The position numbers and the translations under genes were made by a program. The notes below the pieces were generated by a model that worked only from the letters and a program-made list of their open reading frames with translations, was not told where the DNA came from and searched no databases. Source: an uncultured Anaerovibrio sp. (GTDB lineage Bacteria; Bacillota; Negativicutes; Selenomonadales; Selenomonadaceae). Taken from it: a stretch of DNA of 35,186 nucleotides. The stretch spans positions 1 through 35,186 of the forward strand of contig NZ_CAMYWM010000011.1 in NCBI RefSeq assembly GCF_947302755.1, in the 5' to 3' direction. Below, one piece after another: positions 21,383 through 25,039 of this stretch (position 1 is the stretch's first letter; the number at the start of each line of letters is the position of its first letter).

Positions 21383-21562
21383 TTACTTTAACAGCTCTAA
21401 TAAAGCATAATTGGCACCCGAAGAGTTAAGTTCCCGTCTGGATTCCCTTGGAACTCTGAAAAGGTCATCATCAAACTTCCCCTCAGACTCCAGCCATGCT
21501 GCAAGAGCCAAGCCTGCAATACCGCCTACACCCAACAACAAACCATTTTTCCACCAACTCAT
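21383..21562 (-). CDS. Small single-span membrane protein, first gene of the unknown operon (59 aa)
   Basis: ATG 21562 follows a strong AAAGGAGG at 9-nt spacing. Residues 1-23 (MSWWKNGLLLGVGGIAGLA then LAAW) form one hydrophobic segment, which could be a membrane anchor with the acidic and basic remainder facing the cytoplasm. It sits 30 nt upstream of the 142-aa-class gene and very probably shares its transcript. Family not recognised. Confidence 0.68.
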   Translation of the reverse strand: MSWWKNGLLLGVGGIAGLALAAWLESEGKFDDDLFRVPRESRRELNSSGANYALLELLK

Positions 21563-21848: not shown

Positions 21849-21878
21849 TTACACTAACAAACCGTTTCATGTTATAAT
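21849..21878 (+). promoter_or_regulatory. Putative promoter of rpn
   Basis: TTACAC (21849-21854) and a perfect TATAAT (21873-21878) are separated by 18 nt, with AAGGAG and the rpn ATG following within 30 nt. Confidence 0.6.
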
Positions 21879-21904
21879 TTATTTAACGCAAAGGAGATAT
21901 ACCA

Positions 21905-22804
21905 ATGAAAGACCAGCGTTCCATCGAATTTCAGCAAATTGAAAATGACATTGCCCACAAGATATACAATCCTATGAACGATGTCCTTTTCAAATTCATC
22001 TTCGGCAGGGATGAAAGAAAGAATATCACCCTTGATTTACTGAATGCCATATTAAACCGTACTGGCAAAAAGGCTATCAAGGATATTCATTTCAAAAACA
22101 GCGAAATTGTTCCGTACTATGAAGGGGACAAACTTACCCGTCTTGATATTTTCTGCATAACAGAAGATGAAACTAAGATTGATGTGGAGGTTCAGCTAAT
22201 CAATAAAAAGGACATGGAGCGACGCAGTCTGTTTTACTGGTCCCAGATGTATCTGATGGGCTTACACAAGGGAGAGGACTATATCACTCTCAATCCGGCC
22301 ATTACCATAAATATCATGGGACATGAAATTTTCCCTAATGAACCGCTTCATTCAATGTATAGCATTTATAACATTGAAACTGGCCGCCGGCTAAATGAGG
22401 ATTTGGAACTACACTTTATAGAAGTACCAAAATTCCAGAAAAAACCTATCGGTGAAATGACCCGAATGGAACGCTGGCTGGCCTACTTCTCAAACAAGCT
22501 AAATACTGAGGAAATGGAGGAACTTGCCATGAGTGACGCTGCTATAAAGAAAGCCGTTAATGACACTGACATTTTCATGATGGATTTTGAAGAACGGCTC
22601 AAATATATCAATCGCCAGATGGCCATCATGGACTACAACACAGATATGCGTGTATCCCGTGAAGAGGGCCGTACTGAGGGCGAAAAATACGCTGACCGCC
22701 GCACTGCAATGAACATGTTAAAAGCAAAGGAACCTATCGAAAAAATTACCAAGTACACCAGCCTAACTGAGGCGGAAATTTATGAGCTGGCTAAGGAAAT
22801 TTAA
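21905..22804 (+). CDS. rpn: Rpn-family recombination-promoting nuclease (PD-(D/E)XK)
   Basis: Product of 299 aa. The N-terminal two-thirds is the PDDEXK-type nuclease of the Rpn/transposase_31 family: NPMNDVLFKFIFG at 22-34, then LDIFCITEDETKIDVEVQ with catalytic Asp81, Glu95 and Gln97. The middle is the WLAYFSNK segment, and the C-terminal part (from Met209) is a helical region ending with EGRTEGEKYADRRTAMNML and a TSLTEAEI three-helix motif. Published work on E. coli Rpn proteins describes toxicity, phage-defence roles and a short in-frame C-terminal product (RpnS) that restrains the nuclease. Here GGAGG lies 8 nt before the internal ATG of Met209, consistent with such a product. AAGGAG precedes the main start. 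The gene is followed by tandem copies of its own 3' end. Confidence 0.9.
   Translation: MKDQRSIEFQQIENDIAHKIYNPMNDVLFKFIFGRDERKNITLDLLNAILNRTGKKAIKDIHFKNSEIVPYYEGDKLTRLDIFCITEDETKIDVEVQLINKKDMERRSLFYWSQMYLMGLHKGEDYITLNPAITINIMGHEIFPNEPLHSMYSIYNIETGRRLNEDLELHFIEVPKFQKKPIGEMTRMERWLAYFSNKLNTEEMEELAMSDAAIKKAVNDTDIFMMDFEERLKYINRQMAIMDYNTDMRVSREEGRTEGEKYADRRTAMNMLKAKEPIEKITKYTSLTEAEIYELAKEI
22529..22804 (+). CDS. Candidate internal in-frame ORF (RpnS-like C-terminal product)
   Basis: In-frame ATG at codon 209 of rpn, preceded by GGAGG with 8-nt spacing, would give a 91-aa protein starting MSDAAIKKAVND. The same start, with a similar GAGG site, opens the free-standing copies at 22852 and 23187, which indicates that this point is a natural translation start. 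By analogy with intragenic RpnS proteins it may inhibit the full-length nuclease; that role is inference. Confidence 0.5.
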   Translation: MSDAAIKKAVNDTDIFMMDFEERLKYINRQMAIMDYNTDMRVSREEGRTEGEKYADRRTAMNMLKAKEPIEKITKYTSLTEAEIYELAKEI

Positions 22805-22851
22805 TACTTTTGTAAATATGTGTCAATAAGAAATATAATGAGGAACTTGCC

Positions 22852-23139
22852 ATGAGTGACGCTGCTATAAAGAAAGCCGTTAATGACACTGACATTTTCA
22901 TGATGGATTTTGAAGAACGGCTCAAATATATCAATCGCCAGATGGCCATCATGGACTACAACACAGATATGCGTGTATCCCGTGAAGAGGGCCGCGCCGA
23001 GGGCCGTACTGAGGGCGAAAAATACGCTGACCGCCGCACTGCAATGAACATGCTAAAAGCAAAGGAACCTATCGAAAAAATTACCAAGTACACCAGCCTG
23101 ACTGAGGCGGAAATTCAAGAGCTGGCTAAGGAAATTTAA
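22852..23139 (+). CDS. Free-standing duplicate of the Rpn C-terminal region (95 aa)
   Basis: Intact ORF almost identical to residues 209-299 of the upstream Rpn, with one extra EGRA unit in the EGR repeat and Tyr to Gln near the end (AEIQELAKEI). GAGGA precedes the ATG. No nuclease residues are present. Because the duplicated piece begins right at the ribosome binding site of the internal start, it would be made as a separate protein and could multimerise with Rpn through the C-terminal helices. A simple by-product of slippage is the alternative. Confidence 0.65.
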   Translation: MSDAAIKKAVNDTDIFMMDFEERLKYINRQMAIMDYNTDMRVSREEGRAEGRTEGEKYADRRTAMNMLKAKEPIEKITKYTSLTEAEIQELAKEI

Positions 23140-23186
23140 TACTTTTGTAAATATGTGTCAATGAGAAATATAATGAGGAGCTTGCC

Positions 23187-23297
23187 ATGAGTGACGCTAC
23201 TATAAAAAAAGCCGTTAATGACACTGATATCTTCATGATGGATTTTGAAGAACGGCTCAAATATATCAATCGCCAGATGGCCATCATGGAGTTGTAG
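23187..23297 (+). pseudogene. Truncated third copy of the Rpn C-terminal region
   Basis: Starts MSDATIKKAVND after AGGAGCTTGCC and matches the other copies for 35 codons, then leaves homology after MAIME and stops at TAG 23295-23297. The break marks the end of the tandem duplication. It could still yield a 36-aa peptide. Confidence 0.6.
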
Positions 23298-23445
23298 CAT
23301 ATTTTTTCCCCGGCAGAAATACGAGAGGCCCCCCTATAGCAGCCAAAAAGCTGGGAGAGCTGTCATCATCAGGCTCATAATTCAGTCGGATAAATTCGTC
23401 AATTTCCTTTTTGCTTAGTGTTTTCTCGTTTGCAGGCATATCCAT
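23284..23445 (-). CDS. Possible small protein (53 aa), 3' end joined to the rpn duplication
   Basis: Minus-strand ORF MDMPANEKTLSKKEIDEFIR continuing through an acidic stretch PDDDSSPS and a hydrophobic LVFLPGKKYA before stopping inside the truncated rpn copy. AGGACTAGGGG precedes it. A diverged copy of its N-terminal part lies at 24175-24225, which supports real coding. The C-terminal few residues are probably created by the junction, so the original protein may have been longer. Function unknown. Confidence 0.4.
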   Translation of the reverse strand: MDMPANEKTLSKKEIDEFIRLNYEPDDDSSPSFLAAIGGPLVFLPGKKYATTP

Positions 23446-23557: not shown

Positions 23558-23591
23558 TTGACTCCATAACATGCGTACATTATACTGTACA
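23558..23591 (+). promoter_or_regulatory. Promoter and candidate YefM operator
   Basis: TTGACT (23558-23563) and TATACT (23581-23586) are exactly 17 nt apart. The -10 region carries GTACAT and TGTACA half-sites. YefM of E. coli is known to bind TGTACA-centred palindromes, so autoregulation by the antitoxin fits. Confidence 0.75.
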
Positions 23592-23609
23592 TATAAGGAG
23601 GTGCCATTT

Positions 23610-23858
23610 ATGACTACAACTACGATTACAAATTTTAGAAAAAATATTTTTTCGCTGGTTGAGACTGCTGTGCGCTTCAACGAGCCCATACATATAACTT
23701 CCAAAAGTGGAAATGCTGTTATGCTCAGCGAAGATGAATACAGGGGCTTGATAGAGACAGTTAATTTATCCTCTGTTCCCGGGATGAAGGCGAAATTACT
23801 TGAAGGAGCGAATACTCCTTTATCAGATACCATCCCTGAAGATGAGGTAGTCTGGTAA
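23610..23858 (+). CDS. yefM: Type II antitoxin, Phd/YefM family
   Basis: Product of 82 aa. The N-terminal DNA-binding/dimerisation part shows TTTITNFRKNIFSLVE, then PIHITSKSGNAVMLSEDEY, the standard YefM pattern (I.I..K.G.AV..S..E/D). The C-terminal part is the acidic toxin-neutralising tail. AAGGAGGTG precedes ATG 23610; a longer frame from 23571 starts upstream of the promoter -10 and is not used. The YoeB toxin gene follows after one nucleotide. Confidence 0.92.
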   Translation: MTTTTITNFRKNIFSLVETAVRFNEPIHITSKSGNAVMLSEDEYRGLIETVNLSSVPGMKAKLLEGANTPLSDTIPEDEVVW

Positions 23859-23859
23859 T

Positions 23860-24123
23860 ATGTACAAGATTGTTTATACAAAAGCCGCTGTCAAGGATAT
23901 TCCAAAGTTAAAGGCTGCCGGGCTGGATACCAAAGCAAAGGCTCTCATTGAGTTAATAAAAGTCAATCCCTTCCAAACGCCTCCAAGCTATGAAAAATTA
24001 GTTGGTGATTTAAAGGGGCTATATTCCCGTAGAATAAATATTCAACACAGGCTCGTATATCAGGTATACGAAGAAGAAAAAACAATAAAAATTATCAGCC
24101 TTTGGACTCATTACGAACGCTGA
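23860..24123 (+). CDS. yoeB: Type II toxin, Txe/YoeB family mRNA interferase
   Basis: Product of 87 aa, the typical YoeB size. Features: DIPKLKAAGL, PFQTPPSYEKL.GDLKGLYSRRIN, QHRLVYQVY and the C-terminal SLWTHYER with the His and Tyr that, with the upstream Glu and Arg residues, form the ribonuclease centre in the family. YoeB cleaves mRNA in the ribosomal A site. It is coupled to yefM (1-nt gap), and a terminator follows at once. Confidence 0.93.
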   Translation: MYKIVYTKAAVKDIPKLKAAGLDTKAKALIELIKVNPFQTPPSYEKLVGDLKGLYSRRINIQHRLVYQVYEEEKTIKIISLWTHYER

Positions 24124-24174: not shown

Positions 24175-24303
24175 TTATTCGTCAATTTCCTTTTTAATTA
24201 ATGTGTTCTCATTTGCAGCCATAGCAATCCCCTTATTCCTCGTCCAACTTTTCCAATTTTTTACAACAAATAGATCTTTTATTGAGGTTTTCAACTTTCG
24301 CAT
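24175..24303 (-). pseudogene. Diverged second copy of the small-gene sequence
   Basis: Minus-strand ORF of 42 codons starting MRKLKTSIKDLFVVK. Relative to the left copy, a one-base deletion after VVK shifts the frame (NWKSWTRNKG), and it then re-enters sequence equivalent to the second small ORF (MAANENTLIKKEIDE) and stops early. It is therefore probably a degraded copy of the pair at 23284-23521. Confidence 0.5.
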
Positions 24304-24347
24304 CAAAAAGTCCTGCCTATAGTTTTAAAATAATGCCCTTTATACAG

Positions 24348-24395: not shown

Positions 24396-24722
24396 ATGGC
24401 TACAACAACAATTCAGGTACGTATGGATACTGCTATAAAACAACAAGTTGAACAAAAATTAAAATCCATGGGATTAAATATGTCTACTGCTGTTAATATG
24501 ATGGCCCATCAAATAATTAGGCAAAACCGCATCCCTTTCGAGATTATTGCCGATAACAATGATACCAAGCTTGATGGTCTGCCTAAATCCGTAAATGCTG
24601 ATAAAATGACTGATGAGGAACTGCGTCAAAGCCTACTGCAAGGGTATCAGGATGCAATTGAAGGAAGAACCCGCCCAGCCGCTGAAATAGTTGCTGAAAT
24701 GCGGGCCAAGTACAATCTATGA
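24396..24722 (+). CDS. Type II antitoxin, RelB/DinJ family
   Basis: Product of 108 aa. The N-terminus is a ribbon-helix-helix domain of the RelB/DinJ type (TTTIQVRMDTAIKQQVEQ, then LGLNMSTAVNMMAHQIIRQ-like helix with RIPFEI), which binds the operator as a dimer. The C-terminal extension (DEELRQSLLQGYQDAIEGR) is the toxin-binding helix. AAGAGGTG precedes the ATG. The stop overlaps the toxin start by 4 nt. Confidence 0.9.
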   Translation: MATTTIQVRMDTAIKQQVEQKLKSMGLNMSTAVNMMAHQIIRQNRIPFEIIADNNDTKLDGLPKSVNADKMTDEELRQSLLQGYQDAIEGRTRPAAEIVAEMRAKYNL

Positions 24723-25039
24723 AAAAATATCATGTCCATATAACAGAACAGGCCAGCAATCAACTTTCTCAAATTTATGAATATATAGCATTTGAACTTT
24801 TAGAACCATCCTATGCAGGTAAACAAGTAGAAAACTTAACCAGTAAAATACTTTCTCTTGATACCACACCAAAGCGTTGTAAAATCTTTAGTTATACCCT
24901 ATATCCAGGTCAAGACGTCCGTCGCTTATTGGTGGATAATTATTCTATTTTTTTCTTTATCAACGATTCCGTGGTGACTGTAACGGATATTATTTATAGT
25001 CGTTCCGACATTATTAATCGTTTAAAAGATAACCCATAA
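24719..25039 (+). CDS. Type II toxin, RelE/ParE superfamily
   Basis: Product of 106 aa. It has the RelE/ParE fold pattern: YHVHITEQASNQLSQIYEYI (first strand and helix), a helix with LEPSYAGKQVENL, then FSYTLYPGQDVRRLLVDNYSI, the central Arg-bearing strands, and FFINDSVVTVTDIIYSR. Whether it is a ribosome-dependent RNase or a ParE-like gyrase inhibitor cannot be decided by eye. ATGA overlap with the antitoxin gene gives translational coupling. A short hairpin terminator follows. Confidence 0.88.
   Translation: MKKYHVHITEQASNQLSQIYEYIAFELLEPSYAGKQVENLTSKILSLDTTPKRCKIFSYTLYPGQDVRRLLVDNYSIFFFINDSVVTVTDIIYSRSDIINRLKDNP

Follow-up and report, generated by a model that had tools for sequence, protein, structure and literature searches.

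Introduction

The small antitoxin RpnS is made from inside rpn genes and neutralises the full-length nuclease RpnL (Zhong et al. 2023, PMC10327210). Separate downstream rpnS genes are also known in Escherichia coli, namely rpnES (ypaA) and rpnCS; the small protein YpaA/RpnES has been detected, and loss of rpnS by fusion was noted as well (PMC10327210). RpnS proteins vary by four-residue repeats, and for RpnC of E. coli, the protein on which this rule was tested, only an equal repeat number neutralises and a mismatch abolishes neutralisation (PMC10327210).

We analysed a 35,186-nt stretch of DNA from an uncultured Anaerovibrio sp., a rumen bacterium of the Selenomonadaceae (contig NZ_CAMYWM010000011.1, hereafter the window). 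A preliminary description had proposed that the 3' part of an rpn gene is repeated downstream of it. We interpret this region, with a probability of roughly 0.68, as an RpnL/RpnS toxin–antitoxin locus with recombination-generated, probably translated, register-variant copies of RpnS. In this model, the full-length gene would give the nuclease RpnL, and its C-terminal third would also be translated from an internal start as the small helical antitoxin RpnS. Recombination would then have duplicated the rpnS unit and its ribosome site in tandem.

Organization of the array

All coordinates of rpn and its copies held on re-check of the window sequence. A promoter-like region (TTATAAT) and the Shine-Dalgarno sequence AAAGGAGATATACC, conserved in Anaerovibrio orthologues (21850..21904, + strand), precede rpnL, which encodes a 299-aa protein of the Rpn family of PD-(D/E)XK nucleases (21905..22804, +). 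Within this gene, an internal Shine-Dalgarno sequence GGAGG and an ATG (22516..22531, +) open an intragenic rpnS of 91 aa (22529..22804, +). After an AT-rich spacer of 35 nt (22805..22839, +) follows copy 2 (22840..23139, +), composed of the Shine-Dalgarno sequence GAGGA and a free-standing, intact rpnS ORF of 95 aa (22852-23139, +). A second, near-identical spacer (23140..23174, +) leads to copy 3 (23175..23297, +), a truncated rpnS of 36 aa plus stop (ORF 23187-23297) with homology to position 23290, which is probably a dead, decayed remnant.

The copies are direct repeats that begin at 22517, 22840 and 23175 (spacing 323 and 335 nt) and are 96–98% identical over 165–299 nt, far beyond chance. 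The 12-nt difference in spacing equals one additional 4-aa unit (EGRA) in copy 2, which apart from this 12-bp insertion differs from copy 1 by a Y-to-Q replacement and two silent changes; its protein is 99% identical to the C-terminus of the adjoining rpn. The copy borders lie one base inside the Shine-Dalgarno sequence, which reads GGAGGAA in copy 1, TGAGGAA in copy 2 and TGAGGAG in copy 3, and the site of copy 2 is weaker by one G than that of copy 1. We consider copy 2 most likely to be translated as a free-standing RpnS. A terminator search found none on the + strand between rpn and the copies; the orthologues have a terminator-like hairpin after the rpn stop codon, the position occupied by the array in the window. 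Promoters within the spacers were considered and rejected: TTGTAA-18-TATAAT lies ahead of both copy 2 and copy 3, yet 13 such sites were counted where 7.7 would be expected by chance, and the transcript start would land within the ribosome site.

The surroundings of the array were also inspected. YefM/YoeB-like and RelB/ParE-like pairs (23571-24123 and 24396-25039, +) lie directly downstream and form a small toxin–antitoxin cluster. Decayed fragments (21383-21562, 23284-23445 and 24175-24306, all − strand) represent two genes, for a 147-aa MSWWKNGLLLG protein and a 200-aa KKEIDE protein, that are intact beside the free rpnS of A. lipolyticus DSM 3074.

The assembly of the genome (2.66 Mb in 214 contigs) is of the short-read type, its contigs overlap by 55 nt, and contigs C10, C116, C21 and C166 all terminate within rpn genes. 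C10 and C116 join through a 55-nt overlap to give one full rpn, C21 terminates at codon 201 of another rpn, and the end of C166 consists of the last 24 codons of an rpn. A 55-mer is common to C166 and copy 2; near-identical C-termini therefore occur elsewhere in the genome, and the order and copy number of the array depend on the assembly. These contig breaks would agree with an array put together from collapsed rpn paralogues. We regard such an artefact as highly unlikely because the array holds two different spacer variants with different flanks; the 35-nt spacer has two occurrences genome-wide, both within the array, and a like architecture is present in complete E. coli genomes.

Nuclease identity and predicted structure

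The whole product of the window rpn matched the profiles PF12784 (2e-55, 188.3 bits versus a cut-off of 27.4) and TIGR01784 (1e-44, 153.5 bits versus a cut-off of 52.1), while the free copy matched TIGR01784 at 2e-7, under the curated cut-off. Residues D81, D93, E95 and Q97, which include acidic residues of the PD-(D/E)XK type, were invariant in 21 relatives. Judged by these matches, the gene is a member of the Rpn family (COG5464; TIGR01784/PF12784), as the preliminary description had supposed, and its product is presumably an active, DNA-cutting nuclease with a role in defence. For copy 2 on its own (pLDDT 71) and for the corresponding part of RpnL, AlphaFold predicted a long helix that bears the repeats and, after it, two short ones. 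At this modest model confidence, the predicted helix order agrees with that of the intragenic antitoxin RpnAS (PDB 7TH0), an entry absent from the Foldseek listing; a phmmer search gave no sequence match to RpnAS either.

The internal ribosome site

Codon 209 of rpn is the internal ATG (22529); it is preceded by GGAGGAACTTGCC and has the layout GGAGG-N8-ATG at the border between the nuclease and C-terminal parts. Codon choice at this site was compared with the rest of the same genes in 25 non-redundant relatives, across which the site was almost fixed. The Glu-Glu pair at the internal Shine-Dalgarno sequence was coded GAG-GAA in 22/24 cases versus 24/85 elsewhere (p = 1e-10), and the preceding Lys was coded AAG in 12/12 cases compared with 47% elsewhere (p = 1e-4). 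Sites of the form GGAGG-N4-9-ATG in these rpn genes coincided with the internal start in 24 of 28 instances. The biased codons indicate that the internal ribosome site itself is under synonymous selection, beyond the constraint on the protein. RNA structure at the internal starts was no more stable than that of shuffled sequences.

Free-standing copies in related genomes

The preliminary description had called for a search for rpn followed by C-terminal-only ORFs in related genomes, and such arrangements were present both in Anaerovibrio and in other Selenomonadaceae. N-truncated rpn copies recurred within the genus and across the family: free-standing or N-truncated rpnS copies occurred in A. 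lipolyticus DSM 3074 (locus L057) and, 1 kb after a full rpn, in Anaerovibrio RM50 (L044); A. lipolyticus LB2005 (L055) had an N-truncated copy with the promoter fused at about codon 154. More distant Selenomonadaceae also had free or N-truncated copies, including arrays. An rpnL-S-rpnL-S-rpnL array was observed in one genome of this family (L103 2904-7080, −).

The coincidence of the copy border with the internal start, which had been put forward as the striking feature of the window, recurred in the relatives. Eight of 13 independent borders fell in the eight codons that precede the internal ATG, where 0.6 would be expected under a uniform distribution (P = 1e-8; a post hoc statistic over 13 borders that ignores phylogeny, in which the border in genome G049, some 35 codons upstream, was counted as away from the internal start). 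The analysis upholds the view that the copied segment is an RpnS antitoxin unit of the kind described in E. coli (PMC10327210).

An alternative origin would be unequal recombination between repeats that left functionless copies behind. Such debris would fit the truncation of copy 3, the tendency of rpn loci to duplicate and the apparent independence of repeat numbers in E. coli haplotypes (see below). Clustering of the borders at the internal start argues against it, as does retention of the reading frame and of conserved heads in the free copies (omega 0.02–0.10, a value that includes ancestry spent inside rpnL). Apparent C-only fragments also outnumbered apparent N-only ones, which lends weak support only, because the fragments were counted by eye and contig edges affect the count. 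Neutral debris is a possible but doubtful account of the array.

Several other arrangements were noted among the relatives. Free ORFs of 63–70 aa that resemble the C-terminal part of RpnS only recurred in several Anaerovibrio genomes (L043 361-561 and 2425-2637; L005 1513-1704; L094 2331-2543; L095 4880-5092 and 6956-7168). At L112 (1457-2759 in match orientation, on the opposite strand), a 324-aa ORF that looks unrelated is overlapped at its end by a free rpnS; this ORF may be a further Rpn-like gene that forms a pair with the rpnS. At L110 (1478-3500, match orientation), an rpn is split at the nuclease/RpnS border by an insertion of approximately 1.2 kb. Searches of IMG/VR and INPHARED for phage-borne relatives of rpnS returned none, and a role as phage counter-defence was rejected on this basis. 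A link to an anti-CRISPR protein was rejected as a chance result, since the PDB match was weak (E 0.014–0.05) and of low identity over acidic, helical sequence. PADLOC gave a single weak match for copy 2 (PDC-S05, E 0.004).

Repeat number of RpnL and RpnS

The lengths of Anaerovibrio RpnS proteins all followed 83 + 4k and ranged from 83 to 103 aa in steps of four. In these proteins, the 4-aa repeats sit at about residue 45, deeper than in E. coli. The repeat number was unequal in 6/6 Selenomonadaceae pairs of adjoining RpnL and RpnS measured, with length differences of +4 (window), +20 (RM50), +4 (G049), −12 (G112), and +4 and +12 (both G099).

The preliminary description had offered two consequences of the copying, a higher dosage of antitoxin or the creation of variants. 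Added dosage, by which copy 2 would supply more RpnS and restrain RpnL more firmly, would be consistent with a tandem copy that brings along a ribosome site and is not separated from rpn by any terminator found, and with the production of YpaA/RpnES in E. coli. The one-repeat mismatch in the window and the mismatches in the other measured pairs speak against it. A mismatch in RpnC lost neutralisation (PMC10327210), and the dosage reading is therefore weakened if the equal-repeat rule is applied to copy 2. We consider dosage quite improbable; the proposal of variants fits better, given the extra 4-aa repeat.

If the array is a toxin–antitoxin locus with register-variant copies, the additional 4-aa repeat in its dimerisation helix should make copy 2 a poor partner for the RpnL encoded beside it. 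Copy 2 would be expected to match an RpnL that has the 95-aa register, for example one encoded by a paralogue in this genome. The rpn joined from C10 and C116 has the 95-aa register of copy 2 with another tip, and the tip of the rpn represented by C21 and C166 encodes the same protein as copy 2 over the part seen; on sequence grounds, both are possible partners. By analogy with RpnC, copy 2 may leave its own nuclease unrestrained and serve another purpose.

Mismatch was common in E. coli as well. Repeat numbers were equal in 0/13 sampled strains with both rpnE and ypaA. Targeted searches for the 0/0 and 4/4 classes found one record at 0/0 and five records at 4/4, set against about 4,400 genomes with one place covering most of the rpnE-ypaA query; equal-register pairs thus exist in this species but look rare. 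Among 12 distinct E. coli haplotypes, two L/S pairs were matched versus 1.5 expected, which leaves selective avoidance of equal repeat numbers unsupported. Since equal pairs exist and the haplotype matches are close to expectation, the common mismatch between RpnL and RpnS may be due to neutral drift.

Exchange of C-terminal tips

The head of the window rpn was 94% identical to its UBA3726 orthologue, the tip only 67%. Identity of the tip was 86% when compared with the free rpnS of DSM 3074, and a 66-nt part of C166 matched copy 1 at 92% and copy 2 at 97% identity. Informative sites were distributed 4:1 in the head and 8:26 in the tip (p = 0.02). The window tip is thus nearer to those of free rpnS genes and paralogues than to those of orthologues, which shows that these segments are exchanged and that C-terminal tips are passed between full rpn genes and free-standing rpnS. 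Direct repeats such as those of the array would permit this exchange. In E. coli, strains that lack ypaA (L132, L133) bear a ypaA-type tip on rpnE.

C21 and C166 show synteny with the regions on either side of the DSM 3074 free rpnS, which suggests that a full rpn is present at that locus in the window strain. In DSM 3074, the order is the rpn promoter and ribosome site, a DUF4160-DUF2442 gene pair and rpnS from AAATGGAGGAACTTGCCATG. Read from this order, the gene pair has replaced the nuclease part, with its borders exactly at the rpn start codon and at the internal ribosome site (L057 2460-3327; also L088 and L091).

The free rpnS genes could accordingly be viewed as orphan C-terminal cassettes, a reservoir that recombines with rpnL and alters its repeat number and tip. 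The tip identities, the site distribution and the E. coli strains without ypaA favour such a reservoir, but the exchange could be a by-product of the repeats rather than their function, copies 1 and 2 of the window have nearly the same tip, and the p value is modest. This explanation strikes us as unlikely. Distinctly unlikely, in our estimate, is the wider proposition that free rpnS genes are recurrent, selected register-variant cassettes instead of surplus antitoxin genes, which would supply other repeat numbers and tips and change L/S recognition by recombining into rpnL or by pairing with other Rpn proteins.

Comparison with known systems

Full genes with nearby recombinable C-terminal modules are familiar from the orphan tips of Rhs/CDI systems and from hsdS cassette loci. 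The window array resembles these by analogy of layout only; the proteins are unrelated, and there is no sign that swapping is the selected function. The nearest counterpart is rpnE-ypaA of E. coli, likewise a full rpn with an internal start followed by a free C-terminal copy bordered at the internal Shine-Dalgarno sequence. In strain K-12 (MG1655 record), the border is as in the window, with AAAAGGAGAGATTAATG in both genes, and ypaA has exactly one 4-aa repeat more than rpnE. The two loci differ in that the window gene belongs to PF12784 and rpnE to PF04754, in different phyla; E. coli has one downstream copy, whereas the window has one intact and one truncated; the distance from the stop codon to the next ATG is 12 nt in E. 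coli and 47 nt in the window; and the L and S tips are more diverged in E. coli. By its published description, E. coli rpnC-rpnCS also has a separate downstream rpnS, of independent origin (PMC10327210).

The copied-out arrangement of rpnS was thus already known from E. coli, and the window extends it, with the same border, to another Rpn branch and phylum. This shared border argues for the internal ribosome site as the boundary of a functional unit. As neighbouring RpnL and RpnS usually differ in repeat number, the binding partners of free-standing RpnS become a testable question; if these proteins are not the antitoxins of their neighbours, the current interpretation of ypaA and genes like it would have to be revised.
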